Of a DNA stretch of 64,000 bases, positions 50,290 to 64,000 are shown piece by piece (position 1 is the stretch's first letter; each line of letters begins with the position of its first letter). Under the pieces are notes generated by a model that saw nothing but the letters and a program-made list of their open reading frames with translations, did not search any database and was not told the DNA's origin. Both the position numbers and the translations under genes were made by a program. Origin of the DNA: an uncultured Pelagibacteraceae bacterium (GTDB taxonomy: Bacteria > Pseudomonadota > Alphaproteobacteria > Pelagibacterales > Pelagibacteraceae); the NCBI GenBank assembly GCA_902618205.1, contig CACMZL010000003.1, positions 1 to 64,000 of the forward strand, in the 5' to 3' direction.

Positions 50290-50301
50290 ATGACATCCTC
50301 T

Positions 50302-50523: not shown

Positions 50524-51398
50524 TATTTATATTTGTCTTCAATATCGTAATATTCGTTGAAGCCAACTATATCTCTTAAGTCTGAAAATTTAGAAACATT
50601 TTTATTATAAACTTTATTTTTCATATTATTCAAACATTCTTGCATCGTTTTTACTGATGCACTCATTAGGGTTAGAGGCATTACAGCAATTTTATAACCA
50701 ATTTCCTCTATTTCATTAATTTCTAATAATGGGGTTTCACCATCTTCGATCAAATTTAACATATGATGACCTGGAACTTCTTTGATAATTCTTTTCATAT
50801 CTTCTTTATTTTTAACAGCTTCAATAAATAAAATATCAACACCAAGTTTTGAAAATGATTGCATTCTTTTAATTGCATCATCTAATCCTCTAGTTGCTAT
50901 GGCATCAGTTCTTGCCATTATTAAGATATCTTTATTTCCATATTCTCTTGCATCCACCGCAGCTTTAATTCTTGAGTTTGCCTCATCAAGATCGACAACA
51001 TCTTTGCCCTTTGTGTGACCACATTTTTTTGGCCACTTTTGGTCTTCAATCATCACACCAGCTGCTCCTGCATCCGCATATCCTCTTACAGTTCTAAATA
51101 CGTTCACTGAATTTCCATATCCAGTATCCCCATCAAATATTATTGGAATTGATGTAGCATTACATATATTTCTTACCTGTTCAGCCATTTCAGAAAAAGA
51201 AATTAAACCTGTGTCTGGCATACCAAGTTTTGTTGAAGAAACACTGAAGCCAGACATAAAACCAACTTTCAAACCTTCTCTTTCAATTAATTTTGCTGAT
51301 AATGCATCAAAGCATCCGGGCATTACAATTATTTCTGGTCCATTTAATAATTGTCTTAATTGTTCTGCTTTATCTTTTGATTTTATTTTTGAAAACAT
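50523..51398 (-). CDS. Isocitrate lyase/PEP mutase-family lyase
   Basis: This 291-residue TIM-barrel enzyme has the family motifs PGCFDALSAKLIEREG, IPIIFDGDTGYGNSVNV with Mg-binding Asp, EDQKWPKKCGHTKGKDVV with the catalytic Cys loop, and ARTDAIATRGLDDAI. The KKCGH motif indicates a C-C lyase such as methylisocitrate or dimethylmalate lyase rather than PEP mutase. The adjacent TRAP transporter suggests that a branched or hydroxylated dicarboxylate is taken up and cleaved. Confidence 0.9.
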   Translation of the reverse strand: MFSKIKSKDKAEQLRQLLNGPEIIVMPGCFDALSAKLIEREGLKVGFMSGFSVSSTKLGMPDTGLISFSEMAEQVRNICNATSIPIIFDGDTGYGNSVNVFRTVRGYADAGAAGVMIEDQKWPKKCGHTKGKDVVDLDEANSRIKAAVDAREYGNKDILIMARTDAIATRGLDDAIKRMQSFSKLGVDILFIEAVKNKEDMKRIIKEVPGHHMLNLIEDGETPLLEINEIEEIGYKIAVMPLTLMSASVKTMQECLNNMKNKVYNKNVSKFSDLRDIVGFNEYYDIEDKYK

Positions 51399-51400
51399 AT

Positions 51401-52672
51401 TTATAATTTAAAAGGTATATATAATGCTAGGTCAGGGAATAAGTAAATAACAAATACTGTAAATAACATTATAATGACAAAAGGTATCACACCTTTAGCT
51501 ATTTCTGACATTTTTGCTTTACCAATTGCTTGGAGAACATAAATATTTAGTCCAACAGGTGGTGTAATTAATGCACACTCAATCATTAGTGTAAAAATTA
51601 TTCCAAACCAAATTAAATCAATATTCATTGCAGCGATTGAAATCGAAAATATAGGCATCATGATTAAAATTAATGAAAGAGTTTCCATTATAAATCCTAA
51701 GATTAACAAAGTAATACAAACAACTAGTATAAATAAACCAGTCTCATTAATATTAGTAACTATGAAAGATGATAAATCTTGAGGAATTCTATAAAGAGAA
51801 ATTGCTTTACCAAAAACTTTTGCTCCTGCAATAATTATAAATATTGTAACTGTAGTTTTCATTGTTTCCAAACCAGCTTCGATAAAACCTTTAAAATCTA
51901 ATCTTTTTTTAGCCACAACGTAGATAAATGATATTAAAAAACCAATTCCACCTGCTTCTGTTGGTGTATAAATTCCAGCATATATTCCACCCAGCATGAT
52001 GAAGGCCATTAATAATATTGGTAAACCTCTTTTTGTGTATTTAATTTTTTCTTCTAAAGTACTGGATACATTTTGAACTTCTTTATTAAAAAATTTTACG
52101 TAAAAAACTGAAAAGATAATAAAAAATAATGCTAAAACTATTCCTGGCCCAATTCCAGCAAGAAACATACTTAGTACAGACTCTTCAACAACAAATGCAT
52201 ATACAATCATTGGAATTGATGGAGGAATTAAAATCCCTAAAGTTCCACCCGCTGCTAAAATACCTAAAGTAAAGTTTCTGTGATAACCTCTATTGATCAT
52301 TGCAGGAAATGCTACAGTTGAGATTGTTGCTGCAGTAGCCACTGATGATCCAGATATAGCAGCGAAAATACTGCAAGAAACTATAGTCGCTATTGCTAAA
52401 CCGCCTGGAAAATTTCCAACCCAGCTTTGAGCAAAATTAAAAAGATCTTCTCCAACACCTGCTTTTAACAATATATTAGACATCATCAAAAACATCGGAA
52501 CAGCTAATAAAATAAAGTTATCTGCCACACTGTAAAAAGTTTGTGGGATCATTAAAGGAGAAATATCTCCAAATAACATTAAACCCAGTCCTATAGAACC
52601 TAAACCAAATGCTATTGGCACTCCTAAAAAAAGTACAAAAAATAACAAAAATAAGATTATTGCTACTGTCAT
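51401..52672 (-). CDS. dctM: TRAP transporter large membrane subunit (DctM)
   Basis: This 423-residue polytopic protein is the main TRAP permease. It has FLGVPIAFGLGSIGLGL at the start, GGLAIATIVSCSIFAAISGSS, then LAAGGTLGILIPPSIPMIVYAF, all typical of DctM. LITPPVGLNIYVLQAIGK lies near the end. It overlaps dctQ by four bases and precedes the lyase gene by two. Confidence 0.95.
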   Translation of the reverse strand: MTVAIILFLLFFVLFLGVPIAFGLGSIGLGLMLFGDISPLMIPQTFYSVADNFILLAVPMFLMMSNILLKAGVGEDLFNFAQSWVGNFPGGLAIATIVSCSIFAAISGSSVATAATISTVAFPAMINRGYHRNFTLGILAAGGTLGILIPPSIPMIVYAFVVEESVLSMFLAGIGPGIVLALFFIIFSVFYVKFFNKEVQNVSSTLEEKIKYTKRGLPILLMAFIMLGGIYAGIYTPTEAGGIGFLISFIYVVAKKRLDFKGFIEAGLETMKTTVTIFIIIAGAKVFGKAISLYRIPQDLSSFIVTNINETGLFILVVCITLLILGFIMETLSLILIMMPIFSISIAAMNIDLIWFGIIFTLMIECALITPPVGLNIYVLQAIGKAKMSEIAKGVIPFVIIMLFTVFVIYLFPDLALYIPFKL

Positions 52673-53145
52673 TTAATTATATCTTTGATGTATTTAGGTA
52701 CTTCGAAAATCACTCTTAATACCAAAAATGCAAAACATAATGGTATTGCAAATTCTGTAAGAAAGGATGGAACATCTAAAATTGTAGAGCTTGTTCTCCC
52801 AACTTTAAGAGAGTCGTAAGCAATTAACCATCCATAATAAAGTACAAATCCACTAAAAATTAAAATGAATATTGCACTTATTAAATCTAATATCTTTTTC
52901 CCTTTATCTCCTACTTTGTCGTATATAACTGTTATTCTGATAAAATCATTTTTATGAAAAGTATAAGTTAAAGCTAAATAAGTGGCCCAAATTTGTAAAA
53001 ATCTAGAAATTTCATTTACCCAAATAGTAGGTGAATTAAATATGTATCTCATGATAACTTCATAAGAAACTATAAAGCCTATCATAATAAATAACGCTGA
53101 AGCTAAATAGCCAGAATATTTTACAATTTTGTCGTAGGTATTCAT
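52669..53145 (-). CDS. dctQ: TRAP transporter small membrane subunit (DctQ)
   Basis: This 158-residue protein with four hydrophobic segments contains NEISRFLQIWATYLALTYTFHKNDFIRI, the DctQ signature. The start is the ATG at 53145. An in-frame GTG at 53160 lies inside the terminator palindrome and is rejected. The Shine-Dalgarno region (GCGGGG) is in the 3' arm of that hairpin, six bases from the ATG. The hairpin could therefore also limit translation. Confidence 0.9.
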   Translation of the reverse strand: MNTYDKIVKYSGYLASALFIMIGFIVSYEVIMRYIFNSPTIWVNEISRFLQIWATYLALTYTFHKNDFIRITVIYDKVGDKGKKILDLISAIFILIFSGFVLYYGWLIAYDSLKVGRTSSTILDVPSFLTEFAIPLCFAFLVLRVIFEVPKYIKDIIK

Positions 53146-53146
53146 T

Positions 53147-53173
53147 TGAAAACCCCGCACTTAAGTGCGGGGT
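53147..53173 (-). terminator. Perfect palindrome/terminator between dctP and dctQ
   Basis: ACCCCGCACTTAAGTGCGGGGT (53152-53173) is a 22-base perfect palindrome. It is very GC-rich for this DNA and is followed on the minus strand by TTTT. It should act as a strong, possibly leaky terminator after the binding-protein gene and may mask the dctQ ribosome site. Confidence 0.88.
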
Positions 53174-53184
53174 ATTTATATGAT

Positions 53185-54174
53185 TTAAAGTTTGTTAGCA
53201 GCTTTTACAAGTTGATCGCCAACTCCACCAGCTCCACCTGTTCTTGAAATGTAATCATCAATAACAGATGATGAAGCTTTTTTAAGAGCAGAAACTTCTG
53301 AACTACTTAGGTTTACAATGTTCATTCCATTTGCTTTTGCTTCTTTGTAAGCGCCAGCCTCGATGTTAGCCATGTCATCTCTAACAGCTTTTTCAGCTAC
53401 TTTTGATGCTTCAGCTATAGCGTCTCTTTGTTTTTGAGTTAATGAGCTTAGCCATTTATCATTAGCAACAACAACGAATTCGATATCGCCATGATTTGTA
53501 ACTGTTAAAGTATCCATTACTTGATATAATTTTCTAGATTTTACACCAGATACACCAGTCATACCTGCATCAACTGTATTTCTTTGGTAAGCTAAATATT
53601 GCTCAGATCCAGATATTAATGCTGGTTTACCACCTAAAGAACTCACAAAAGCTCCAAGTGTTTTTCCAAATACTCTAATTTTTTTATCTTTAAAGTCAGC
53701 CGGAGTTTTCATCGGACCACCATTAGATAACATTATTGCTGATCCATAAGCTTGATAATAAAGTGGAACTGCTCCAGTCTTTGCTATTGCAGGATCAAGG
53801 ATAGCTCTTATCTCAGATCCAGCTTGAGTTGCTTTTCTTACTTTTTGTTCTGAGTCAAATAAGAATGGAAGATAGAAAACATCAACTTCAGGATTAGTTC
53901 CTGCAAATCTTGTTATAGATGCAACACCAGCTTCGATCGCTCCTGAACCTACTGCTTGCGGAACCTCTTTATCTTTGTAAAGTTGTGCAGAGTCGTAAAT
54001 CTCTACTTTAATATCTGATCTTGATTCTAATTCTTTTTTAAATACCAAAAGGTTCTGACCTAAGTGAGCCTTTAATGGTAATTGAAGTGTAATTCTCATT
54101 TTTGTTTCTGCCAAACTTGCACTAGCAAAAGAAACGAAAATTAGAGAAAATATTATTCTTTTAAAGATTTTCAT
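53185..54174 (-). CDS. dctP: TRAP transporter periplasmic binding protein (DctP)
   Basis: This 329-residue receptor has a signal peptide ending FVSFASASLA before ETKMRITLQL. DctP features are KAHLGQNLLVFKKELESRSDIKVEIYDSAQLY and FKDKKIRVFGKTLGAFVSSLGGKP with the ligand-binding Arg. It has a GAGGGAAA Shine-Dalgarno and opens the operon dctP-dctQ-dctM-lyase-DUF2798-dehydrogenase. The ligand is probably a C4-C6 carboxylate or hydroxyacid. Confidence 0.93.
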   Translation of the reverse strand: MKIFKRIIFSLIFVSFASASLAETKMRITLQLPLKAHLGQNLLVFKKELESRSDIKVEIYDSAQLYKDKEVPQAVGSGAIEAGVASITRFAGTNPEVDVFYLPFLFDSEQKVRKATQAGSEIRAILDPAIAKTGAVPLYYQAYGSAIMLSNGGPMKTPADFKDKKIRVFGKTLGAFVSSLGGKPALISGSEQYLAYQRNTVDAGMTGVSGVKSRKLYQVMDTLTVTNHGDIEFVVVANDKWLSSLTQKQRDAIAEASKVAEKAVRDDMANIEAGAYKEAKANGMNIVNLSSSEVSALKKASSSVIDDYISRTGGAGGVGDQLVKAANKL

Positions 54175-54209
54175 GTTATTTCCCTCTTTTTTGTTAAATG
54201 AGACTATTT

Positions 54210-54219
54210 AAGTCGACTT
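54210..54219. promoter_or_regulatory. Short palindrome upstream of dctP
   Basis: AAGTCGACTT is a perfect 10-base palindrome, extended imperfectly to TTTAA and TTAAA on each side, 36 bases upstream of the dctP ATG in the divergent spacer. It is a candidate operator. It could also be chance. Confidence 0.25.
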
Positions 54220-54249
54220 TAAAATTAAATACAATATTAATAATCATCA

Positions 54250-55149
54250 ATGAATTGGATAATTGTAGCTATTTCTGGGGCTTTTTTTCAAAATCTTAGA
54301 TCAACTTTACAGAAAAAACTTAATCAAAAAGTATCTACTATTGCATCAACTTATGTAAGATTTGCTTTTGCGTTACCATTTGGGACAATTTTATTTTTTT
54401 TGTATTTCCAAGATTTAAATGTAATTCCTCAAATCCTAAGTCAAAAAAAATTTATATTTAACGTATTATTAGGTTCAATTTTCCAAATAATTTTTACATT
54501 TGTTTTACTCTATTTATTTAGATTTGCTAATTTTGTAGTTGGAACTTCATTAAGTAAGACTGAAGTTATTCAAGTTGCAATTTTTGAATATTTAATAATA
54601 GGGGATAAATTAAATAAATTTGGAATAACAGGAATTATTGTATCTACAATTGGAGTAATTATATTATCGATTAAAGATTTAAGTTTATTTCTAAAAAACT
54701 TATTTTCAAAAACAACTTTAATTGGTTTATCCGCAGGACTATTCTTAGGTTTAAGTGTTGTATATTTTAGAGCAGCAGCATTAACATTGGAAAATTTTAG
54801 TAATAACTTTGAAAAAGCTATAGCAACACTATTTTTTGGTCTAGTTATACAAACAACATTAGTTACTATTTATTTAATTATATTTGAAAAGTCGCAGTTT
54901 AAAAAATTATATGAAAACAAGTATGAATGTTTGACAGCAGGGTTAGCTGGATTTCTCGCAACATTATCTTGGTTTTATGCTTTTACATTAATACAATCTT
55001 CATTTGTTAGAGCTATCGGCCAAATAGAATTATTATTTAGCTATGTGTCTTCAAAGTATATGTTTAAAGAAAAAGTTAAAATTACAGAAATTTTAGGGAT
55101 AATTATATTTGTAGTAGGAGTACTAATTTTATTATTAAATAAGAGCTAA
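54250..55149 (+). CDS. EamA/DMT-family membrane transporter
   Basis: This 299-residue inner-membrane protein has about ten hydrophobic helices. The N-terminus contains SGAFFQNLRSTLQKKLNQKVS, a form seen in a less-studied DMT subgroup. The second half has ATLSWFYAFTLIQSSFVRAIGQIELLFS. It stands alone on the plus strand, divergent from dctP, and its stop overlaps the end of the SMR operon by four bases. The substrate is unknown. Confidence 0.85.
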   Translation: MNWIIVAISGAFFQNLRSTLQKKLNQKVSTIASTYVRFAFALPFGTILFFLYFQDLNVIPQILSQKKFIFNVLLGSIFQIIFTFVLLYLFRFANFVVGTSLSKTEVIQVAIFEYLIIGDKLNKFGITGIIVSTIGVIILSIKDLSLFLKNLFSKTTLIGLSAGLFLGLSVVYFRAAALTLENFSNNFEKAIATLFFGLVIQTTLVTIYLIIFEKSQFKKLYENKYECLTAGLAGFLATLSWFYAFTLIQSSFVRAIGQIELLFSYVSSKYMFKEKVKITEILGIIIFVVGVLILLLNKS

Positions 55150-55481
55150 TTAATTCTTCCAAGATAATTAACCATTACAACACCAATAATAATTAAAAAA
55201 ATCCCAATTAACCCATACATATTTGGTATCTGGTTATATTTAATCATACCGAAGACTAAAATAGCAGCCACTGTTATCCCACTATAAGTGGCATAAGTAA
55301 AACCTACTGGTATCATAGACATAGCTTTTGCAAGTCCATACATAGTTATACACATAAAAGCTATTGATAATATCGTTGGAGTTAATTTTGAAAATCCATC
55401 TGAAATTTTAGCAAAACTATTTGCAGCTATCCCTGTTGATATAGCTAATACTAAATAAATGTAACCAGATAACGGTTTCAC
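55146..55481 (-). CDS. SMR-family small membrane transporter subunit lacking the conserved Glu
   Basis: This 111-residue protein with four helices aligns with EmrE: YIYLVLAISTGIAANSFAK at the start, PVGFTYATYSGITV in helix three and GVVMVNYLGRIN at the end. The residue corresponding to EmrE Glu14, needed for proton and substrate binding, is Gly. Its upstream neighbour is a second SMR protein with the same change, so they probably form a heterodimer. The two overlap by four bases. Function may differ from drug/proton antiport. Confidence 0.85.
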   Translation of the reverse strand: MKPLSGYIYLVLAISTGIAANSFAKISDGFSKLTPTILSIAFMCITMYGLAKAMSMIPVGFTYATYSGITVAAILVFGMIKYNQIPNMYGLIGIFLIIIGVVMVNYLGRIN

Positions 55482-55813
55482 TTATTTGTTCCTAATAAGT
55501 TAACTATTAAGACACCCGAGATAATTAAAATCAATCCAATTATTGTATAAAAATTTGGCACTTGATTAAATTTTATAACACCAACGGCAGCTGTTGCAAT
55601 TATACATAAGCCTGCAAAAGAGGCATATGTTATTCCAACTGGTATACTTTTCATAACTAAAGACAAAGTATACATGCATCCAACAATTGTTACTGCTGTG
55701 ATTATGCTAGGTATTAATAATGTAAAACCTTGAGCACTTTTAGCAAAACTATTTGAAGCTGTTCCAAGAATTACTGCGATTAATAAAATTATATAAGCAG
55801 TTATATTATTCAT
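55478..55813 (-). CDS. SMR-family small membrane transporter subunit lacking the conserved Glu (paired partner)
   Basis: This 111-residue, four-helix SMR protein starts MNNITAYIILLIAVILGTAS. It has IPVGITYASFAGLC in helix three and SGVLIVNLLGTNK at the end. As in its partner, the EmrE Glu14 position is Gly. The ATG at 55813 is used, since a longer frame would run into the upstream isomerase gene, which it already overlaps by eight bases. The pair is probably an obligate two-gene SMR of unknown substrate. Confidence 0.85.
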   Translation of the reverse strand: MNNITAYIILLIAVILGTASNSFAKSAQGFTLLIPSIITAVTIVGCMYTLSLVMKSIPVGITYASFAGLCIIATAAVGVIKFNQVPNFYTIIGLILIISGVLIVNLLGTNK

Positions 55814-56402
55814 TTGCCTTCGACCATTTGATTGCATCTTCCATTCTATCATCTCCCCAGAATATTTCATTTTTTACAACAAATGACGGACTTCCAAATA
55901 TTTTATTTTTTCTAGCTTTTTCTGTATTTGATAAATAAATATTATTTATTTCCTCAGAGCTTGCCTCTGAAACAATCTTTTCTTTATCTAAGCTTAGTTT
56001 TCTACAGATTTCACTCAAGTTGGGTTCAACAGCAGGCTCTTTTCCTTCTTGAAACCATCGTTTATATGTAAGTTGAACGTAATCTACACCCCAGTTATTT
56101 TTTAAACCTAATATTGCAATTTTATTAGCTAAATCAAATTCTGTTAAAGGGTAAGGAACTGGTGTTTTGGCAAAAAATCCATAATTTTTTGCTCGTCTTT
56201 CTATGTCCCTCCACATGTAATCTACTTTATTTTTTTTTTCTTTAGGAAAGGGAACATTGTTCATTTCTTTCATTATTGCTCTCACACTAAAAGGAGTCCA
56301 GTTAAACTTAATTTGATGTTGTTTTTCTGCTTCTAGTGCTCGAGTAACCGAAAGATAAGTATAAGTACTTCCAATAGAAAAATAAAAATCTATATTGTTC
56401 AC
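55806..56402 (-). CDS. DsbA-fold 2-hydroxychromene-2-carboxylate isomerase/kappa-GST-like protein
   Basis: This 198-residue protein starts NNIDFYFSIGSTYTYLSVTRA, the pattern of HCCA isomerase/kappa-class GST. It has a thioredoxin-like core with a helical insertion and FGSPSFVVKNEIFWGDDRMED at the end. The Ser of FSIGST takes the place of the redox Cys. Such proteins use glutathione with aromatic or hydrophobic substrates. The start is a GTG directly after the stop of the NTF2-like gene, so it belongs to the tiny-protein operon. Confidence 0.85.
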   Translation of the reverse strand: MNNIDFYFSIGSTYTYLSVTRALEAEKQHQIKFNWTPFSVRAIMKEMNNVPFPKEKKNKVDYMWRDIERRAKNYGFFAKTPVPYPLTEFDLANKIAILGLKNNWGVDYVQLTYKRWFQEGKEPAVEPNLSEICRKLSLDKEKIVSEASSEEINNIYLSNTEKARKNKIFGSPSFVVKNEIFWGDDRMEDAIKWSKANE

Positions 56403-56723
56403 TTATTTTGGCATTGGCGTTGCGCCAGTTTCTAAACTAATCATTTTGCCATCTTTGTATTTGTAGACTGCCATAACTGCTTCTACATTACCATCATCAA
56501 ATGTTACAAACGCATGGTGAACACCAACTTCATCATTTTCATAAACAATTCTAGTTTTATCTTGCTTAATATCACCACTCATTGCCCATTTGATAACATC
56601 ACTTTTAGTTAAAACACTCCCTGATTTATGCATTGTGAATTTAAAATCATCATGCAAAAGTTCATTCATTGCTGCTTCATCTTTATTTTTAATTGCAGCA
56701 CTATATTTTTCTAATATTGACAT
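56403..56723 (-). CDS. NTF2/SnoaL-like small protein (paralogue of 59032-59361)
   Basis: This 106-residue protein has an NTF2-like cone fold suggested by the N-terminal helix MSILEKYSAAIKNKDEA, ELLHDDFKFTMH and the strands around AFVTFDDGNVEAVMAVYKY. It shares MSILEK, YENDEVG, H..VT..DGN.EA and the ending KDGK.I..ETGAT..PK with the gene at 59032-59361, so the two are duplicates. An AAAGGAGA Shine-Dalgarno precedes it. No catalytic role is assigned; members bind or modify small molecules. Confidence 0.78.
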   Translation of the reverse strand: MSILEKYSAAIKNKDEAAMNELLHDDFKFTMHKSGSVLTKSDVIKWAMSGDIKQDKTRIVYENDEVGVHHAFVTFDDGNVEAVMAVYKYKDGKMISLETGATPMPK

Positions 56724-56734
56724 TTTTTTCTCCT

Positions 56735-57025
56735 TTATGCTCCTTTAATTATTAATGTATTTGATACAGTATTATCTAATCTAATCTGTCTGATAGGTTT
56801 ATATATTTCGGAATTGTACCACTCAAAAACTTTTTCATAAGATGGGAATTTAATTACAACAGTTCTTGGATATTTCCACTCACCTTCAATAACTTCATTT
56901 TCGCCACCTCTTATAATGTATTCGCCACCAAACATTTGAGCAGTTGGAGGAGCTTTTTCCAAATACTCTTTGTAATTTTCAGGATTTAACACATTAATAT
57001 TTAATATGATATATCCTGAAGGCAT
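56735..57025 (-). CDS. DUF1330-family small protein
   Basis: This 96-residue protein of the dimeric alpha/beta-barrel type starts with SGYIILNINVLNPENYKEYLEKA. It continues FGGEYIIRGGENEVIEGEW and VVIKFPSYEKVFEWYNSEIYKPIRQIR, a close match to DUF1330. The function is unknown; the fold is shared with heme- or quinone-binding monooxygenase-like proteins. It lies between an NTF2-like and an ABM-like gene in the same operon. Confidence 0.88.
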   Translation of the reverse strand: MPSGYIILNINVLNPENYKEYLEKAPPTAQMFGGEYIIRGGENEVIEGEWKYPRTVVIKFPSYEKVFEWYNSEIYKPIRQIRLDNTVSNTLIIKGA

Positions 57026-57048
57026 TACAAACCTTATTACAAAAATTA

Positions 57049-57339
57049 TTACATATCTACTTTATTTAATTCGTAGACACTGTAACTTTCCATAACTTCT
57101 TTCATAACTGGAGCTGATACTGGATTGCTTCCATCTATAAAAGCTTTAAGGGCAGCTTTATCGGTCACAAAAATTTTAAACATTACTGTTTTTTTGTCAG
57201 GTGCAACTGTTCCAATTGTTTTTGATACATTTGCAACTTTCGATCTTTCTGCCATACCAGCATCTGATTGCATAAAGCCCATAAATTTTTCTAACATACC
57301 TTCTTTTAAATGAGCTACTACTAGTGTTTCTGTTTCCAT
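57049..57339 (-). CDS. Small dimeric alpha/beta-barrel-like protein (ABM-like)
   Basis: This 96-residue protein has the beta-alpha-beta pattern of a ferredoxin-like dimeric barrel. A strand METETLVVAHLKEG and a helix KFMGFMQSDAG are followed by a strand pair ending KKTVMFKIFVTDKAALKAF. It is probably a relative of antibiotic-biosynthesis monooxygenase-like proteins, without recognisable catalytic residues. It has an AAAGGATA Shine-Dalgarno. Confidence 0.7.
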   Translation of the reverse strand: METETLVVAHLKEGMLEKFMGFMQSDAGMAERSKVANVSKTIGTVAPDKKTVMFKIFVTDKAALKAFIDGSNPVSAPVMKEVMESYSVYELNKVDM

Positions 57340-57366
57340 ATTTTATCCTTTCTTTATATTGATTGT

Positions 57367-57657
57367 TTATCCACTAAAATTTTCCATAAAATCTTCATGC
57401 ATCGGTGTAACCTTTGCTGAATCTAAATCCACGCCTGCTTCAGCTCTTGCTGCATGAAGTTCTTTGTCATTTTTAAATGCTTCAAAACCTTCCATGGTTG
57501 CATACTTAACGATTACAGTAAATTTTGTAGGGTCTTCTTTTGATACACCTGCAAAAATAATCGTAGCACCAAATCCTTTAATTTTTTCAGCATTCGCTTT
57601 TACCATATTCATCCATGATGAAAGTGATTTTATATTTTCTTCTATTTTAATTATCAT
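57367..57657 (-). CDS. Small dimeric alpha/beta-barrel-like protein
   Basis: This 96-residue protein has IIKIEENIKSLSSWMNMVKANAE and GATIIFAGVSKEDPTKFTVIVKY, then a helix SMxEGFEAF-like (TMEGFEAFKNDKELH). This is the layout of ABM-like or DUF3764-type barrels. The function is unknown. Its own Shine-Dalgarno (AGAGAGGAAA) suggests independent, high translation. It is similar in size and layout to its two neighbours. Confidence 0.68.
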   Translation of the reverse strand: MIIKIEENIKSLSSWMNMVKANAEKIKGFGATIIFAGVSKEDPTKFTVIVKYATMEGFEAFKNDKELHAARAEAGVDLDSAKVTPMHEDFMENFSG

Positions 57658-57670
57658 TTCTGTTTCCTCT

Positions 57671-58069
57671 CTATTTAACTGGATTTACAATCTTCTGACC
57701 TTCAACACCGATTGCAACCACTATTGCTTTAGCAGGCACATTTCCTATATTTCGAGATTCATGAGCAATACCGACATCTTCAACAAATGCATCACCAGCC
57801 TTATAAACTTTGGTTTTACCATCCATCGTAAGCTCAATTTCACCTTGTTGGATCATTATTAATACTGGAAAGGAATGTGTGTGAGGTTTTACTGGAGCTC
57901 CTACAGGGACAGTAAATTCAAAAGCTGTTATTTTTGCTTTACCCGATGGATAAACAATTTCATTTCCCATACCAGTTTCACTTGTTGATAATATTCTCTT
58001 TACATGACCATCTGCAAAGCAATTTGAAGTAAAGATACTTAAGAATAATACGACTATAATTTTTTTCAT
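57671..58069 (-). CDS. Secreted cupin-domain protein
   Basis: This 132-residue protein has a signal peptide (MKKIIVVLFLSIFTSNCFA) cut before DGHVKRI. The single cupin shows PVGAPVKPHTHSFPVLIMIQQGEIEL and AGDAFVEDVGIAHESRNIG. These give a His-rich motif 1 (HTH) and a motif 2 His (AHE), so metal binding in the periplasm is likely. The ligand or substrate is not known. Confidence 0.85.
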   Translation of the reverse strand: MKKIIVVLFLSIFTSNCFADGHVKRILSTSETGMGNEIVYPSGKAKITAFEFTVPVGAPVKPHTHSFPVLIMIQQGEIELTMDGKTKVYKAGDAFVEDVGIAHESRNIGNVPAKAIVVAIGVEGQKIVNPVK

Positions 58070-58086
58070 AAATTTTCCTATATTGT

Positions 58087-58374
58087 TTAACTATTAAAAT
58101 TGAATACTTCCTCTTTTACCTCTGTAAATTGATGTGGTTCAAAAAAATCATTCATAGCAGAAAGTTGCTCATTAATAGCATCGGTGCTTTCAGCCATCCA
58201 ATGACAGAACATAGTCATTGTCTCATCAGGAGTGTAGTATGTCATTTGACATTTGGCCTTATCACTTGTTGATGATTCAATTATTTGTTCTCTAGTCATT
58301 CCGCCTAAAGTTTCATTAAATTTTTTTTTCATTTCTTTGGATTTAAACGTGTGAGTTACCATATAGTATTTCAT
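58087..58374 (-). CDS. Small dimeric alpha/beta-barrel-like protein, unknown function
   Basis: I do not recognise this 95-residue protein. It starts with a strand KYYMVTHTFKSKEMKKKF, has a helix with GGMTREQIIESSTS and MTMFCHWMAESTDAINEQL, and ends in a helix near FEPHQFTEVKEE. The layout fits the ferredoxin-like barrel family of its neighbours. The CHW segment may be a metal or ligand site, which is speculative. Confidence 0.65.
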   Translation of the reverse strand: MKYYMVTHTFKSKEMKKKFNETLGGMTREQIIESSTSDKAKCQMTYYTPDETMTMFCHWMAESTDAINEQLSAMNDFFEPHQFTEVKEEVFNFNS

Positions 58375-58392
58375 ATTACCTTTCAGTTTGTT

Positions 58393-58662
58393 TTAATCTG
58401 AGCAAACGCTCATCATTGTTGTTTCTTGTTTGTGTCCAGATTCTTCGATTACTTTAGCATTATCTGGGTCTTGCATAAATTTTTGCATTGTATCTGCTGC
58501 GGGAGTCTCCATGACTATATGAACTTTATTTGGATTATCTATTTCATTTCCAACATAAACTGTTTTTATACCAGCAGCTTCCCTAGGTTCTTTATGGGCA
58601 TCAAAAGATTTTTTCCATTGATCCCAATCTTTCACTTCAAAACTACCTACCATCTTCACCAT
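58393..58662 (-). CDS. Small dimeric alpha/beta-barrel-like protein, unknown function
   Basis: This 89-residue protein begins MVKMVGSFEVKDWDQWKKSF. It continues GIKTVYVGNEIDNPNKVHIVMETP and a helix DTMQKFMQDPDNAKVIEESG, a pattern shared with cyclase-like and ABM-like barrels. The ATG at 58662 overlaps the cupin gene stop (TAATG). A GTG at 58674 would add four residues but is less likely. Confidence 0.7.
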   Translation of the reverse strand: MVKMVGSFEVKDWDQWKKSFDAHKEPREAAGIKTVYVGNEIDNPNKVHIVMETPAADTMQKFMQDPDNAKVIEESGHKQETTMMSVCSD

Positions 58663-59018
58663 TATTCGCCCCACACTCCACCAAACTCGTATGCAATAAC
58701 TGGCTCATCACCAACTACCCATGCATCATGACCTGGTTTAACTGAGTAAGCGCTACCGGCGGTATAAGTAATTTCTGTTCCATCGTCATGTTTTGCACAC
58801 ACAGTTCCTTTTACAATAACCCCAATATGATTTGCCTGACAACTTGCAGAATCAGAGTCTATTTTTGGTTTAACATCTTTTGACCATTTCCAACCTGGTT
58901 GAAGTTTAATTTGTACTAACCTCTGTCCACCAACATTCACATGGTACATGTCTGCATTGTCAAATTGTTTAAATTCCTGATCTGGTTTATCAAAACTTTT
59001 TGTTTCTGCGCCACTCAT
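58662..59018 (-). CDS. Cytoplasmic cupin-domain protein
   Basis: This 118-residue protein without a signal peptide has one cupin. QIKLQPGWKWSKDVKP leads into CQANHIGVIVKGTVCAKHDDG, and AGSAYSVKPGHDAWVVGDEPV is the second motif. It has several Cys/His residues (CQANH, CAKH, PGHD) suitable for metal binding. A TAAGGAGGA Shine-Dalgarno is among the strongest in the window. The function is unknown; similar cupins occur beside NTF2-like proteins in marine genomes, as far as I can judge. Confidence 0.82.
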   Translation of the reverse strand: MSGAETKSFDKPDQEFKQFDNADMYHVNVGGQRLVQIKLQPGWKWSKDVKPKIDSDSASCQANHIGVIVKGTVCAKHDDGTEITYTAGSAYSVKPGHDAWVVGDEPVIAYEFGGVWGE

Positions 59019-59031
59019 AATCCTCCTTAAT

Positions 59032-59361
59032 TTATTCTTTTGGTAATTTTGTTGCGCCTGTTTCTACTTCGATGATTTTTCCATCTTTGAACTTCCAACA
59101 ACACATTAACGCCTCTGTGTTTCCATCTTGATAGGTCACATAAGAATGATCAAAACCTATCTCATCATTTTCAAAAAGAATTCTATGTTTAACAGGACTC
59201 ATCATTCCTTTACTTACAGCCTCTATCATACCTTCTTTACCCATATGCACATATTCGCCTTTAAGATGAGAAAACATCTTATATTCTTCATGCACTAACT
59301 CTCCAGCTGCAGCCCCATCCTTTTCCAAAATTGCTTTATTAAGTTTTTCTAAAATTGACAT
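59032..59361 (-). CDS. NTF2/SnoaL-like small protein (paralogue of 56403-56723)
   Basis: This 109-residue NTF2-like protein starts MSILEKLNKAILEKDGAAAGELVHEEYK. It has LFENDEIGFDHSYVTYQDGNTEALM in the core and ends KDGKIIEVETGATKLPK. The close match to 56403-56723 in start, core and tail shows a recent or conserved duplication inside the operon. A CTAAGGAGA Shine-Dalgarno is present. Confidence 0.8.
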   Translation of the reverse strand: MSILEKLNKAILEKDGAAAGELVHEEYKMFSHLKGEYVHMGKEGMIEAVSKGMMSPVKHRILFENDEIGFDHSYVTYQDGNTEALMCCWKFKDGKIIEVETGATKLPKE

Positions 59362-59369
59362 ATTTCTCC

Positions 59370-59837
59370 TTAGTTTAAATTATAATTTCCTGTAATTTCA
59401 TTGTAAGAATGAACTATCCCTTCTTGTGCAGAATTCATACCTTTTATAGTCGCAGTTCCACCACCTGATATATTTTCATACTTTCCAGTTCCACTTACAT
59501 ATTTCCATCTCAACATTTTTCCAAAAACACCTTTATATTGCGAAGTTGCTGTTCCACCATCTTCAAATTTATTTACGCAAGTACCACTTTCATATCCTTT
59601 TCCTGCAAAAACAACTATTGAACCTACGCATCTCATTGAAGATTTATCTCCAAAAGTCGTTCCATCTAATGCTTTTAAACCCAACATACCATCATAGATA
59701 ATTGTAAAATTACCTTTATCGTCACCTAAAACCTTTGATGTACCTGCAAAAAAACCGTTTTGTTTAATTTGTCCTTGTTCAGCAAAAGCTGTGCTCGACA
59801 TAAATATGATAATTAAAAAAAAATATAATTTTTTCAT
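59370..59837 (-). CDS. Secreted small beta-rich protein, unknown function
   Basis: This 155-residue protein has a signal peptide (MKKLYFFLIIIFMSSTAFA) cut before EQGQIKQ. The mature part is rich in Gly, Thr and Ser with many short strands (NFTIIYDGMLGLKAL, GGTATSQYKGVFG, GGGTATIKGMN). This suggests a beta-barrel like an allene-oxide-cyclase or dirigent type. Two cysteines, in SMRCVGS and SGTCVNK, may form a disulfide. I do not recognise the family. It is one of two exported proteins in the operon. Confidence 0.7.
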   Translation of the reverse strand: MKKLYFFLIIIFMSSTAFAEQGQIKQNGFFAGTSKVLGDDKGNFTIIYDGMLGLKALDGTTFGDKSSMRCVGSIVVFAGKGYESGTCVNKFEDGGTATSQYKGVFGKMLRWKYVSGTGKYENISGGGTATIKGMNSAQEGIVHSYNEITGNYNLN

Positions 59838-59843
59838 AAACTC

Positions 59844-60218
59844 TTACTTTTTCATTGCATTGAACATGCTCAATGTGTCGTCAAACGCAATAAACAATGT
59901 CAGTTTACCATCATCGCTTACTTCAAAATAATGACCAAAAATAGTATCCATGCCATCTGCCTTAGCAATTGCTTTAACAAACACTTTATTCCCCTCACTT
60001 ATCATCATATCAGGGGTTACTGAAAAATTACTCCATAGATCTGGAACTCGCATCATGGTTTTCATATATGCTTCTTTGCCTTTATGAGTTCCTGACATTG
60101 GATGCTTATCTCCAGGATAAATCCAAGTGATATCATCATGTACCATTTCCATAAATCCCTTCATATCTCCTTTGCCAAAAAGTTCATATCCTTTTTTTAC
60201 TACTTCTTTTGCGTTCAT
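59844..60218 (-). CDS. NTF2/SnoaL-like protein
   Basis: This 124-residue protein starts NAKEVVKKGYELFGKGDMKGFMEMVHDDITWIYPGDKHPMSG, the N-terminal pattern of SnoaL-like polyketide-cyclase/NTF2 proteins. FVKAIAKADGMDTIFGHYFEV and LTLFIAFDDTLSM follow. It is a different branch from the two paralogous NTF2 genes in the same operon. It is the first gene of the run after an 82-base spacer, with a TAAAGGAA Shine-Dalgarno. Confidence 0.8.
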   Translation of the reverse strand: MNAKEVVKKGYELFGKGDMKGFMEMVHDDITWIYPGDKHPMSGTHKGKEAYMKTMMRVPDLWSNFSVTPDMMISEGNKVFVKAIAKADGMDTIFGHYFEVSDDGKLTLFIAFDDTLSMFNAMKK

Positions 60219-60267
60219 AAAATTCCTTTAATTATTATATAATTATTATTTATTCTAAATTAAAAAT

Positions 60268-60283
60268 GTAATGGTTTTATTAC
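60268..60283. promoter_or_regulatory. Inverted repeat upstream of the tiny-protein operon
   Basis: GTAAT-N6-ATTAC lies in the 82-base spacer between cysK and the first NTF2-like gene. It could be an operator or a weak stem. Promoter boxes in this spacer are too AT-rich to choose. Confidence 0.25.
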
Positions 60284-60300
60284 AGTGCTGGTATGCGTGA

Positions 60301-61302
60301 TTATATCCAGTCGGGATAAGGCAAACCTTTTTCAATTAAAAAAGGTTTATTAAACATCTTTGAGTTGTATCTGTCTGATTTGTCGCAAAGAATAGTGACA
60401 ATAGTTTTACCTGGTCCTAATTTTTTCCCTAATCTAATTGCACCTGCAATATTTACTCCACAACTTGTTCCAAGACTTAAACCTTCATTTTTGATTAAAT
60501 CATATAGTATTGGCAAAGATTCTTTATCTTCAATTGAAAAAGCTCCATCTATTTTTGCTTCTGCAAAATTAGCAGTTACTCTGCTGGATCCAATGCCCTC
60601 AGTTATTGATCCACCTTCAGCTTTTAGCTCTCCGTTTTCAATATGATTGTAAAGAGATGATCCTTTTGGATCTGATAGATAAATTTTTATATCTTTATTT
60701 TTTTCTTTTAAAAAACTACTTACTCCACCAATAGTTCCACCAGTTCCAGAAGAACATACAAATCCATCAACTTTTCCCTCCGTTTGCTCCCATATCTCAG
60801 GACCTGTTGTATGGTAGTGACCTTTAGAGTTTGAGGTATTATCAAATTGATTTGCCCAAACTACTCCGTGATTATTTGAACTTTTTAGCTCTTCAGCCAT
60901 TCTAGCGGCAACTTTAACAAAATTATTTTCGTCTTTATAGGGTTTTGGTGGAACCAATTTTAAATCTGCACCAATATTTCTTAATGTATCTTTTTTTTCT
61001 TGAGTTTGATTATCGTTCATCACAATAATTGTCTTGTAACCTAGTGAATTTCCAATAAGGCATAAACCAATACCAGTGTTTCCTGCAGTTCCTTCTACAA
61101 TTATTCCACCTTTAGATATTAATTTTTTTTGTTCAGCATCTCTTATTAAAGCAAGTGCTGCTCTGTCTTTTACAGATCCTCCTGGATTTAAATATTCGGC
61201 TTTACCATAAATATTACAGCCAGTTATTTCAGATGCAGCTTTTAGTTTTATTAAAGGAGTATTTCCAATTGATTGGATAAAATCATCCTTGTAATTTTTC
61301 AT
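60301..61302 (-). CDS. cysK: Cysteine synthase (O-acetylserine sulfhydrylase)
   Basis: This 333-residue PLP enzyme makes cysteine from O-acetylserine and sulfide. It has SIGNTPLIKL, the PLP lysine in YLNPGGSVKDRAAL, the substrate loop VEGTAGNTGIGL and the phosphate-binding SSGTGGTIGG. It is somewhat longer than CysK proteins of about 310 residues and resembles the alphaproteobacterial CysK variant. It overlaps cysE by one base, so the last two steps of cysteine synthesis are coupled. Confidence 0.93.
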   Translation of the reverse strand: MKNYKDDFIQSIGNTPLIKLKAASEITGCNIYGKAEYLNPGGSVKDRAALALIRDAEQKKLISKGGIIVEGTAGNTGIGLCLIGNSLGYKTIIVMNDNQTQEKKDTLRNIGADLKLVPPKPYKDENNFVKVAARMAEELKSSNNHGVVWANQFDNTSNSKGHYHTTGPEIWEQTEGKVDGFVCSSGTGGTIGGVSSFLKEKNKDIKIYLSDPKGSSLYNHIENGELKAEGGSITEGIGSSRVTANFAEAKIDGAFSIEDKESLPILYDLIKNEGLSLGTSCGVNIAGAIRLGKKLGPGKTIVTILCDKSDRYNSKMFNKPFLIEKGLPYPDWI

Positions 61303-61877
61303 TATTCTTTTTCCTCATTACCATTTGTAACAGCATAAGGTTTAAATTCTTCAGTTGCTGTTCCAACATTCTTAGCAGGTATTCCTACCATAACAGCATT
61401 TTCAGGAACATTTTTTGTTACAACTGCATTAGCTCCAATTCTTGCATTTTTCCCTACAACAACAGGCCCCAAAATCTGCGCTCCTGAACCAACAACAACA
61501 TTATCATGAAGAGTAGGGTGTCTTTTAATTTCTCTTTGATCATTGGAATTTATGCTTGGAGATATTCCACCTAAAGTAACCATATGATAAATTGTTACGT
61601 TATCTGCAATGTCAGATGTTTCACCTATAACGACGCCCATACCGTGATCAATAAATAAATTTTTACCTATCTTAGCTCTTGGATGAATTTCAATACCAGT
61701 TAAAAATCTTGAAAATTGAGAAATTATTCTTGCGATAAGATCGAATTTTGCAGTAGCAAAAAAATTTGCAATTCTGTGAAAAAATACAGCCTTAACGCCA
61801 GGGTACGTTAATATTACACTTAACTTAGATCTTGCCGCTGGATCCCTATCAATAATTGATTGCAAATAGTCATTCAT
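61302..61877 (-). CDS. cysE: Serine O-acetyltransferase
   Basis: CysE acetylates L-serine with acetyl-CoA to feed CysK. It has 191 residues, the short form of the family. The catalytic left-handed beta-helix has [26 protein letters not shown] and IYHMVTLGG, followed by [24 protein letters not shown]. The helix repeats end at [15 protein letters not shown]. It starts the cysE-cysK unit, 37 bases from the ETHE1-like gene on the same strand. Confidence 0.95.
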
Positions 61878-61914
61878 AGACTGCCTATATAGTTATTAAT
61901 GTTGGAATTTAAAG

Positions 61915-62610
61915 TTAATTAATATTGTCTAAAGTAAGCCCTTTTACATTAGCAGGCACTGCGACATCCATCATTTTTGGATTTGCAAGATTTAGATTAT
62001 TCATTATGTCCGCGTATTCTTCTTTAGAACTTACTTGTAATCTTGGATTATTATTTTTTTCATTTTCAATAGTGGAAAATTTCTTGCCATTATAATCATG
62101 AGCTGGAAATACGAGAGTTTTTTCGGGTAATTTTAATAATTTATTAAATATAGAATCATAAGCATCGTAAGCATTACCATTTTGAAAATCTGTTCTACCA
62201 CTTCCATTTATTAAAAGTGTATCTCCAGTAAAAACTCTATCATTCATCAAAAAACTATATGAACAATCAGTATGACCAGGTGTATAAATCGCTTGAAGTT
62301 CAACTTCTTCAACTTTAATTTTTTCACCATCTTTAATTCTTAGATCTATCACTTGTGATTTAGATTTTTCTCCCATAACCCTTATACAGTTTGTTCTTTT
62401 ATTTAGTTCATTTAACGCTGAGATGTGATCAGCATGAATGTGAGTATCAATTACTTTTACAAGTTTAAGATCTAAATTATTTAAAATAGTTGAATACTCA
62501 TCAGAATGTTCAATGACTGGATCAATTATTAGTGCTTCTCTACCTTCACCACTTGCAATTATATAAGTGTATGTAGAAGATTTTTGATCGAAAAGTTGTT
62601 CAAATATCAT
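61915..62610 (-). CDS. ETHE1-like persulfide dioxygenase/metallo-beta-lactamase-fold hydrolase
   Basis: This 231-residue MBL-fold protein has the iron-ligand motif VIDTHIHADHIS (H57, H59, D61, H62), then the GHTDCSYSFLM His and FTGDTLLINGSGRTDF. The FPAHDYNG His closes the site. GRTDFQ-x-GN and HDYNG are specific to the ETHE1 group, which oxidises glutathione persulfide to sulfite. The adjacent cysEK genes fit a sulfide-handling role. Confidence 0.9.
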   Translation of the reverse strand: MIFEQLFDQKSSTYTYIIASGEGREALIIDPVIEHSDEYSTILNNLDLKLVKVIDTHIHADHISALNELNKRTNCIRVMGEKSKSQVIDLRIKDGEKIKVEEVELQAIYTPGHTDCSYSFLMNDRVFTGDTLLINGSGRTDFQNGNAYDAYDSIFNKLLKLPEKTLVFPAHDYNGKKFSTIENEKNNNPRLQVSSKEEYADIMNNLNLANPKMMDVAVPANVKGLTLDNIN

Positions 62611-62632
62611 AAATACCTAACTTTATAAAAGT

Positions 62633-62661
62633 TTGCTTAGTAAAACAATCTTTCATATAAT
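62633..62661 (+). promoter_or_regulatory. Promoter for the peroxiredoxin gene
   Basis: TTGCTT (62633-62638) and a perfect TATAAT (62656-62661) are exactly 17 bases apart. A strong AAGGAGGAG ribosome site follows just before the ATG at 62685. This is the best promoter-like match noticed in the window. Confidence 0.7.
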
Positions 62662-62684
62662 ATTTTTTTTATAAGGAGGAGACA

Positions 62685-63344
62685 ATGTTAAAAATAAATA
62701 GTATGTGTCCTGATTTTCAAGCTAAAACAACTGAAGGAGATATTTCTTTTCACGAATGGTTAGGTGATAGTTGGGGAGTTATTTTTTCACACCCTAAAGA
62801 TTTTACACCAGTTTGTACTACAGAACTTGGTGCTTTAGGTTTAATGAAAGATGAATTCGATAAAAGAAATGTTAAAGTGATTGGTTTAAGTGTTGATGGA
62901 GTAGAGGATCATAAAAAATGGTTAGATGATATTAAAGATGTATCTGGCACAAAACCAAATTATCCAATTATTGCTGATGAAGATTTAAAAGTAGCAAAAT
63001 TGTTTAATATGTTGGAAGCAGATGCTGGAACAACTTCAATGGGTAGAACTGCAGTTGATAATGAAACTGTAAGAACTATTTTTGTAATCAGACCTGATAA
63101 GAGAATTGGATTATATCTTACATATCCTATGGCAACTGGAAGAAACTTTTTAGAGATTTTGCGTGCAATAGACTCTATGCAGCTAACAGCTAAACATAAA
63201 GTAGCTACTCCCGCTAATTGGAAAAAGGGAGAGGATGTTGTTATTTTGCCAGCGATTAAAGATGACGAAGCTAAAAAAATATATCCAGATGGATGGGAAA
63301 CTGTAAAACCTTATCTAAGAAAGGTTCCAGACCCTTCTAAGTAA
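62685..63344 (+). CDS. 1-Cys peroxiredoxin (Prx6 type)
   Basis: This 219-residue thiol peroxidase reduces hydrogen peroxide and organic peroxides. The peroxidatic Cys44 is in HPKDFTPVCTTELGALG. The longer C-terminal domain with IRPDKRIGLYLTYPMATGRNF and a WKKGEDVVILPAIKDDEA segment is typical of Prx6-like 1-Cys enzymes. It has the clearest promoter and Shine-Dalgarno in the window, consistent with high expression. Confidence 0.95.
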   Translation: MLKINSMCPDFQAKTTEGDISFHEWLGDSWGVIFSHPKDFTPVCTTELGALGLMKDEFDKRNVKVIGLSVDGVEDHKKWLDDIKDVSGTKPNYPIIADEDLKVAKLFNMLEADAGTTSMGRTAVDNETVRTIFVIRPDKRIGLYLTYPMATGRNFLEILRAIDSMQLTAKHKVATPANWKKGEDVVILPAIKDDEAKKIYPDGWETVKPYLRKVPDPSK

Positions 63345-63345
63345 A

Positions 63346-64000
63346 TTGGATAAAAATATTTTAAACCGACAATCTCAGCATTGGGAAACTAATTTCTCAA
63401 ATAAGCCTGAGATGTTTGGTTTAGAACCAAGTATATCTGCAAAAAAAGCTTTAAATATTTTCAAAGAAAACAATTATTCTAAAATTGTTGAGCTAGGAGC
63501 GGGTCTAGGAAGAGATAGCATTTACTTTGGAAAAAATTCGATAAATGTTACCGCATTAGACTATAGTGAAAATGGAATTAAAGTTATCAATGAAAAAATA
63601 AAAAAAGAAAATCTAACATCTTCAATTTCTACATTAAAATTTGATATAAGAGAGGACTTGCCATTTGAGAGTAATTCAGTTGATGCTTGTTATTCACATA
63701 TGCTTTATTGCATGGCTTTAACTCAGAAAGATTTGGACAAACTTAATAGCGAGATTCATAGAATTTTAAAACCAGGAGGAATAAATATTTACACAGTCAG
63801 AAATACTGATGATGGGGACTATAAAAAAGGAATTCATAGAGGAGAAGATTTATATGAGATAGATGGTTTTATAATTCATTTTTTTTCAAAAAAGACAATT
63901 CAAAATTTAATAAATGGATATGAAAATTTGTCTATTGATTATTTCGAAGAGGGTACTTTTCCAAGAAAATTATTTTTTGTTTGTAATAAAAAAAAAAATT
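63346..64000 (+). CDS. SAM-dependent methyltransferase (3' truncated by window edge)
   Basis: An open frame begins with a TTG two bases after the peroxiredoxin stop and runs without a stop to the window end (218 codons visible). The class I methyltransferase motifs are present: IVELGAGLGRDSIYFGKN (motif I), VTALDYSENGI, DLPFESNSVDACYSHMLYCM and LKPGGINIYTVR. The TTG start is inferred because no ATG is better placed; the ATG in KPEMFGL would cut the N-terminus. The gene is probably co-transcribed with the peroxiredoxin gene. The substrate is unknown; small-molecule or thiol methylation is typical. Confidence 0.85.
   Translation, partial: MDKNILNRQSQHWETNFSNKPEMFGLEPSISAKKALNIFKENNYSKIVELGAGLGRDSIYFGKNSINVTALDYSENGIKVINEKIKKENLTSSISTLKFDIREDLPFESNSVDACYSHMLYCMALTQKDLDKLNSEIHRILKPGGINIYTVRNTDDGDYKKGIHRGEDLYEIDGFIIHFFSKKTIQNLINGYENLSIDYFEEGTFPRKLFFVCNKKKN

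Follow-up and report, generated by a model that had tools for sequence, protein, structure and literature searches.

The window analysed here is a 64,000-nucleotide stretch of DNA from an uncultured Pelagibacteraceae bacterium (contig CACMZL010000003.1, positions 1 to 64,000 of the forward strand), a member of the SAR11 bacteria, which are among the commonest cells in the sea and whose genomes are models of streamlining. Immediately behind cysE-cysK it holds an array of 14 genes, all on the minus strand (60218-55146), whose units we name N1 to R14; f-labels denote clusters formed by script, L-labels loci and G-labels genomes. Eleven of the products are small (124, 155, 109, 118, 89, 95, 132, 96, 96, 96 and 106 residues, in order), and internal gaps measure 6, 8, 13, -1, 18, 17, 13, 27, 23, 11 and 0 bp, the SMR genes R13 and R14 overlapping adjacent genes. 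A first-pass annotation, made from the letters alone, had counted fourteen minus-strand genes with gaps of at most about 30 bases, eleven of them encoding proteins of 89-155 residues, and these counts hold (the largest internal gap is 27 bp). Its remark that nearly every small gene has its own Shine-Dalgarno sequence was likewise correct: a match of at least 4 nt precedes 10 of the 11 small genes (the exception is S2, at 59837) versus 10 of 53 other window open reading frames (ORFs) of at least 150 residues with mechanically chosen starts, a contrast that is real and whose magnitude is rough.

The upstream anchor consists of a cysE-like hexapeptide acyltransferase gene (61302..61877, minus strand; Pfam Hexapep), syntenic with cysK in relatives, and cysK itself (60301..61302, minus strand; NCBIfam PRK10717 cysteine synthase A, 513.8 bits with a cut-off of 387), which is the usual upstream neighbor. 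Between cysK and the first array gene lies a leader (60219..60300, minus strand) with the conserved element CATA-N-C-N-G ... TGTAAY-N6-RTTACA, in which the palindrome TGTAAT-N6-ATTACA occupies 60267..60284. Three units are NTF2-like: N1 (59844..60218, 124 residues; Pfam SnoaL_2, 44.6 bits, above cut-off), N3 (59032..59361, 109 residues; DUF4440, below cut-off) and N11 (56403..56723, 106 residues; DUF4440, 31.9 bits, above cut-off); N11 varies least of all the small genes and is 48% identical to N3. Two are cupins: C4 (58662..59018, 118 residues; below the Pfam cut-off, with conserved C60, H64 and H97) and the secreted cupin_2 protein C7 (57671..58069, 132 residues; 53 bits, with conserved H63, H65, H103 and N107). 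Small barrels are predicted for A5 (58393..58662, 89 residues; DUF3764, 47 bits), A6 (58087..58374, 95 residues; weakly SCO4226-like, below cut-off), A8 (57367..57657, 96 residues; DUF3764/ABM-like, 23.8 bits with a DUF3764 cut-off of 24) and A9 (57049..57339, 96 residues; no Pfam match), which are joined by the DUF1330 protein D10 (56735..57025, 96 residues; 101 bits) and by S2 (59370..59837, 155 residues; no Pfam match). In a sequence search against solved structures, A6, A8 and C4 had no match below an E value of 0.1, N11 had one weak match, S2 none that was useful and A9 none. S2 and C7 carry signal-peptide-like N termini (59837 and 58069) by a regular-expression test, in agreement with the two signal peptides proposed earlier. 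The fold classes of the first-pass annotation (NTF2-like, cupin, DUF1330, ABM/ferredoxin-like and a secreted β-rich protein) were recovered by Pfam and by structure models, for A9 with moderate confidence, and one co-directional, operon-like set with small-molecule-type folds is supported.

S2 and A9, which have no Pfam match, were assigned by structure prediction. The S2 model (predicted local distance difference test, pLDDT, 85.7) is an all-β barrel, and Foldseek matches it to a dirigent protein (E value 4e-6). The uncharacterised Shewanella protein 2q03 gives a VIA Z score of 15.7, the cyclase PloI4 14.5, pyocyanin demethylase 13.1, the dirigent protein AtDIR6 13.0, the Diels-Alderase AbyU 12.7 and allene oxide cyclase (AOC) 11.8, a strong match for a predicted AOC-type eight-stranded barrel. 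Since identity to AOC-type structures is only 7-19%, the match speaks for the fold and not for the function. S2 alleles across arrays diverge to 34% identity. In L146 a nearly unchanged mature S2 follows a different signal peptide, which suggests that signal peptides are shuffled. The A9 model (pLDDT 93.8) is a ferredoxin-like barrel whose best structural matches are ABM, NIPSNAP and LsrG chains, with Z scores up to 9.2 for the monomer model; because unrelated ferredoxin-like chains reach 7-8, the assignment of A9 as an ABM/NIPSNAP-like barrel is moderate. Folds near S2 and A9 include PloI4, PyrI4, SnoaB and FasU.

Downstream of the small genes the array ends in a more constant tail. I12 (55806..56402, minus strand, 198 residues; Pfam DSBA, 93 bits) has 2-hydroxychromene-2-carboxylate (HCCA) isomerase as its closest solved relative (E value 6e-13, over residues 4-187) and a serine aligned to Ser11 of NahD, which we take to be the catalytic residue; judged by sequence, I12 combines the DsbA fold with a serine at the catalytic place, as expected of an HCCA isomerase. 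R13 (55478..55813, start read as the ATG at 55813) and R14 (55146..55481), both on the minus strand and 111 residues long, match Pfam Multi_Drug_Res with 57 and 68 bits (cut-off 23.7), R14 being the downstream anchor. When aligned to what we take to be the EmrE sequence, the E14 column holds glycine in 113 of 113 distinct SMR sequences and glutamate in none, and in 15 aligned rows no acidic residue lies within the E14-equivalent helix. By this alignment the pair lacks the glutamate characteristic of the proton-coupled SMR type. The link of an isomerase and a Glu-less SMR pair to the small genes, noted at first pass, is supported.

We compared the locus across relatives in 141 loci, which comprise the window, 60 stretches found through C4, N3 and N11 matches, and the top 80 of 410 N11 relatives. 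Removal of 26 loci without cysK on the contig and of two duplicates left 113 distinct cysK-containing loci, and omission of three without an SMR match left 110 for arrangement counts. Genes were called first by a script's choice of ORFs, which overlooked a few genes, N11 in L100 among them, and called I12 short. They were then recounted by matching family profiles to every forward frame; in the clustering N3 and N11 count as one family, as do R13 and R14. From cysK to the first SMR gene, both ways of calling yield 63 arrangements in the 110 loci, and the recount gives 62 arrangements without I12 and 61 gene sets if order is ignored. A Chao1 estimate of 289 arrangements was not used, as sampling was biased. 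Co-occurring family pairs were found in both orders in 38 of 223 cases by ORF calls and in 45 of 212 by the recount. Arrays contain one to 12 genes (median 7), and 764 of 770 array genes are no longer than 165 residues (ORF calls, with I12, the SMR genes and five genes >200 residues left out); the 770 sort into 24 named families or singletons. N3/N11 is present in all 110 loci by the recount (most loci were selected by matches to this family), followed by A9 (95), D10 (78), I12 (74), S2 (58), N1 (56) and f8 (46). Further families are GYD (f17), cupredoxin-like (f19), VOC (f32), DsrE (f49), TPR (f24) and DUF2798 (f6) proteins, and some additional ones have no Pfam match. The smallest array, in L105, is N11 alone.

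This variation bears on the idea of a single set acting as a single pathway, which the first-pass annotation had entertained and which is not supported. Because gene content and order vary so widely, a fixed pathway is unlikely and an interchangeable repertoire fits better; the loss of units one at a time or in blocks, which in the extreme leaves a lone N11, also makes a single pathway unlikely. A role in detoxification, signalling or biosynthesis, as the annotation proposed, may still apply. Homologues scattered singly with no conserved neighborhood would have refuted the annotation; instead, the families recur jointly at one locus in the genus and as mini-arrays elsewhere. The diversity of arrangements is not an artefact of gene calling, given that the profile recount returns the same 63 in 110. 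Chance or faulty annotation can be set aside in view of the recurrence of the units in 113 distinct cysK-containing loci and of their low ratios of nonsynonymous to synonymous substitution (dN/dS). An assembly artefact is unlikely, since arrays also occur in one-contig genomes (G035, G043 and G063); many of the loci come from single-cell assemblies.

Genomes without N11 were also considered: 14 were queried with cysK and ten loci were obtained. Six have at least one array-family gene (in G254 just f6 and a reverse-strand f25), one leaves its contig after N1, that of G026 (L216) is empty, with one 69-residue ORF and then the SMR pair, and two outer-genus loci (L218 and L219) hold no array. Eight genomes (L032-L038 and L040) carry a C4-type cupin, 60-62% identical to window C4, without an array and at another conserved locus.

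Among close relatives the array turns over while its flanks stay in place. Across 32 loci closely related to the window, the share of positions homologous to it is 1.00 in each 500-bp bin of 50001-57000 and 60501-64000, with flank identities of 0.92-0.985, and just 0.34-0.44 at 58001-59500, inside the array. The bin at 63501-64000, where identity to close relatives drops to 0.92, below the other flank bins, is perhaps another variable spot. A quick tree built from the downstream flank in 33 loci, with some forks left open, requires at least six presence changes for C4 (as a block), six for S2, five for N1, three for A8 and one for C7. L128 and L129 share 99.05% over 4.3 kb from just before A9 onward, and despite this near identity C7 in one corresponds to N1-S2-C7-A8 in the other. 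Of the sorted plates, each of which we take to be one seawater sample, all 15 with at least two loci contain two or more arrays (43 cells hold 39 arrays in all, and the eight cells of plate AG-447 hold seven). Cells of different lineages share these plates, and the collections hold one genome per species, so the comparisons concern variation between species.

Where a unit is shared and its neighbor differs, homology ends at the gene ends. The median end point is 3 bp after the stop codon (53 distinct cases in 421 comparisons) and, on the upstream side, 5 bp ahead of the start codon (62 cases in 933 comparisons), compared with a median of 400 bp, equal to the cap, in controls with the same next gene (3518 comparisons). 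The N1-C7 joint of L101 falls inside a signal-peptide start, C7 beginning with the ribosome site and the first ∼27 nt of S2. Median dN/dS is <1 in 20 of 20 families tested, and 0.02-0.36 for the small soluble families other than S2.

The sequence right behind cysK stays conserved whether N1, A9, C7, S2 or f8 is the first gene. The leader holds CATA-N-C-N-G and TGTAAY-N6-RTTACA, and 11 aligned leaders share 16 invariant columns. The pattern TGT-N12-AnA occurs within the first 75 nt after cysK in 60 of 113 loci versus 8% of random window slices, and in 63 of 110 loci the sequence ahead of the first array gene scores above the 99% background level with a leader weight matrix, a count that is partly circular because 12 distinct sites from these loci went into the matrix. 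The exact TGTAAY-N6-RTTACA occurs once in the window's genome, as does a control pattern. Many of the remaining loci have a second leader type, common to loci with different first genes and located behind a post-cysK insert, which in labelled loci (for example L026 and L193) carries a reverse-strand, membrane-protein-like gene resembling f25; this rests on 22 of 33 distinct upstream sequences viewed, and L092 and L162 are exceptions. Neither the empty locus L216 nor the outer-genus loci L218 and L219 have the leader. Considered as a possible RNA hairpin or weak cysK terminator, the leader has z scores of -0.27 in the window, -2.64 in L106 and 0.80 for one leader of the second type; arm pairs are broken in L109, L103 and L141. 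Rfam gave no match at the gathering threshold in the window and none at an E value of 1 in the array region. The leader may be a promoter, an operator or a weak cysK terminator.

Array and leader can occur away from the usual site. In the complete genome G017 they lie behind a ∼50-residue 3' remnant of cysK (L107:6577-6723; G017:C1, about 662 kb), and the intact cysE-cysK pair lies ∼320 kb away with no array gene within 1.5 kb behind it (the two loci concerned are L107 and L237). With the remnant and leader beside the array and the intact pair elsewhere, the array was moved, or copied, as a block with its leader and cysK tail. An N3/N11 relative is present in 162 of 297 genomes order-wide. In another family of the class, A9-C4-f20-N11 (L229:8189-9526, G426) and A9-C4-N11 (L230, G653) occupy a different chromosomal site in genomes of 1.4 Mb, which suggests transfer between lineages or a very old unit; an A8-N11-like pair was found in a third family (L231), and no array gene was seen in L234, a stretch outside SAR11. 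An S2 relative occurs in four of 385 class genomes, including the window's own, the others being weak. DUF3764 relatives occur in five and A9 profile matches in three of 289 genomes, each count including the window's genome, and the N11 profile matched only the window's genome among 249 from the phylum. Relatives are thus rare outside SAR11, and the set is largely confined to this group.

We interpret the segment as one allele of a mosaic array, shuffled by recombination, of cofactor-free pocket proteins for reactive small molecules, a reading to which we assign a probability of about 50%. A fixed leader, usually behind cysE-cysK, heads interchangeable single-gene units of ∼270-470 bp, nearly all with their own ribosome site and almost free of spacers, after which comes the more constant tail of N11, often I12, and the Glu-less SMR pair. 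Units would be gained, lost and reordered by recombination, probably homologous and in the conserved flanks, with additional joints in short similarities at gene ends, such as the starts of signal-peptide genes. Most units would be one-domain pocket proteins, acting in the cytoplasm and in the periplasm; in other systems their folds (ABM, NTF2/SnoaL, cupin, AOC/dirigent barrel, VOC, GYD and DUF1330) serve to cyclise, oxygenate, isomerise or sequester reactive, hydrophobic or aromatic molecules without an organic cofactor. The likeliest role of such an array would be a changeable kit for defence against, or processing of, reactive hydrophobic metabolites of seawater; I12 and the nearby cysteine genes could supply thiol chemistry, the SMR pair could move product or substrate, and variety itself may be under selection. 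More tentatively, the array may be an integrase-free, integron-like repertoire of SAR11, in which one constant leader drives mini-enzymes swapped between coexisting cells, giving combinatorial chemistries across the population.

Several points weigh against the mosaic-array interpretation. Folds of the array occur in very many proteins of unrelated role, and sharing a fold shows no function; expression of the array and an enzymatic or ligand-binding role for its products are putative. Some families (f6, f25, f30, f24 and f8) are membrane, TPR or helical secreted proteins rather than pocket enzymes, and a few arrays (L094, L100, L173 and L174) include one larger enzyme gene, of the enolase superfamily, FMN-dependent dehydrogenase or 3-hydroxyisobutyrate-dehydrogenase-like type. 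DUF3764 matches in L232 and L233, outside SAR11, stand alone without other array genes. The loci were picked by C4, N3 and N11 matches and are not a random sample, with one genome per species. In compact genomes, selection for intact genes alone could place joints at gene ends. Finally, apparent dN/dS is high for S2 (0.56) and for the SMR genes and f6 (0.44), perhaps from saturation and merged paralogues.

The strongest competitor is an ordinary flexible genomic island, that is, a recombination hot spot behind cysK that gathers small genes of unrelated function. Variable islands with fixed flanks are known in SAR11 and other marine bacteria, according to the excerpts of two reports (PMC2217521, PMC4033161), and the membrane, TPR and larger-enzyme units just mentioned would suit a mixed collection. 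We nevertheless consider this unlikely: unit size is strikingly uniform, the same families recur jointly at unrelated sites, the leader travels with the array, and the units are single, non-surface genes, unlike the replacement islands described in those excerpts. No integrase or transposase domain was found in the recurrent families (several of which have no Pfam match at all) or in four further array proteins, including three inserts >200 residues, the one-off small genes being partly scanned. In the window we saw no repeated inter-unit site, as the only long direct repeat, of 88 nt, comes from the paralogues N3 and N11 and the other direct repeats are scattered and at most 32 nt. Carriage by phage was considered and rejected, as viral contigs contained no relatives of A9, C4 and N11, the three units searched.

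The array might instead be a signalling or sulfur/redox homeostasis module in which LsrG-like, GYD and DsrE units process a thiol- or aldehyde-type signal. The resemblance of A9 to LsrG, the DsrE and VOC units of some arrays, the frequent presence of cysE-cysK next door, and the prx (peroxiredoxin) and MBL (β-lactamase-fold hydrolase) genes found upstream, next to cysE-cysK, in the window's relatives would all suit such a module. The neighbors may, however, be a mere safe landing site; prx and MBL are replaced in many loci, and the arrays of L107 and L229 are not next to an intact cysK, which makes this explanation doubtful. A biosynthetic or catabolic pathway for one compound, with tailoring enzymes of the aromatic-polyketide type, is still harder to sustain. 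SnoaL, ABM, cupin and AOC-barrel folds are typical of tailoring enzymes, and PloI4, PyrI4, SnoaB and FasU are among the folds near S2 and A9, but the Pfam results for the array contain no ketosynthase, polyketide synthase or other scaffold-building gene, and a linear pathway would not survive the loss of members singly or in blocks that is seen among close relatives. A phage-defence or anti-competitor locus, its diversity kept by an arms race, is very improbable: defence loci are usually hypervariable at a fixed site when close relatives are compared, but none of 10 array proteins matches a known defence family in PADLOC, the Pfam results for the array families include no nuclease or protease domain, and viral contigs lack relatives of the three units searched.

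Streamlined as SAR11 genomes are, this locus reassorts its tiny genes nearly one at a time while dN/dS stays low, in one of the most abundant bacterial groups in the sea, and the array offers a natural system for single-gene shuffling by recombination without an evident integrase. Should the units prove to be enzymes or binders of reactive metabolites, the locus would map the small-molecule pressures on SAR11 and provide a source of compact cofactor-free biocatalysts. If the repertoire form of the interpretation is true, the population would hold a large set of chemistries beyond the means of any one streamlined genome. The role of DUF1330, DUF3764 and similar orphan families could be tested in context.

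The first-pass annotation knew of no described system with such a set, and our literature searches on the locus and its families in SAR11 found no description either, although an unnamed entry in the full tables or supplements on SAR11 hypervariable regions (HVRs) could overlap. DUF3764 is merely named in the excerpt of PMC10434023, and the excerpts of PMC7318151, PMC7542561 and PMC12421898 concern other islands. SAR11 HVR1-4 resemble the array in their fixed flanks, variable content, absence of visible mobile-element genes and likely homologous recombination. They differ in that array units are single ∼300-bp co-directional genes behind a constant leader, and in content: the excerpts of PMC2217521 and PMC5069961 describe cell-surface and transport genes and, in HVR3, sulfur-response genes, whereas the array encodes tiny pocket proteins and its Pfam results include no surface-structure genes. 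Exchange of islands by homologous recombination is described for whole surface clusters in the excerpt of PMC4033161. Flexible islands in general share with the array the conserved flanks (1.00) around differing content (down to 0.34); the flanking integrase or transposase of additive islands was absent from the array proteins scanned, and the whole-cluster swaps and surface genes of replacement islands give way to gains and losses of single genes or blocks.

Among enzyme systems, aromatic polyketide tailoring enzymes (SnoaL, SnoaB/ABM and AOC-barrel Diels-Alderases) bring the same small cofactor-free folds side by side, but their clusters differ in containing scaffold-building enzymes, and membership of the array changes between close relatives. 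The AOC-barrel family, with AOC, dirigent proteins, PyrI4/PloI4 and the pyocyanin demethylase PodA, has the fold of the S2 model (Z scores of 10-16); at 7-19% identity, and with S2 apparently exported, the likeness is one of fold only. I12 agrees with HCCA isomerase/κ glutathione S-transferase in its alignment and its serine, and no aromatic-degradation genes were seen in the array. Integron cassette arrays differ in that we found no integrase and, in the window, no repeated site between units, and in that the units here carry few bp beyond the ORF; what the two have in common is a constant leader followed by interchangeable, co-directional units of one gene each.

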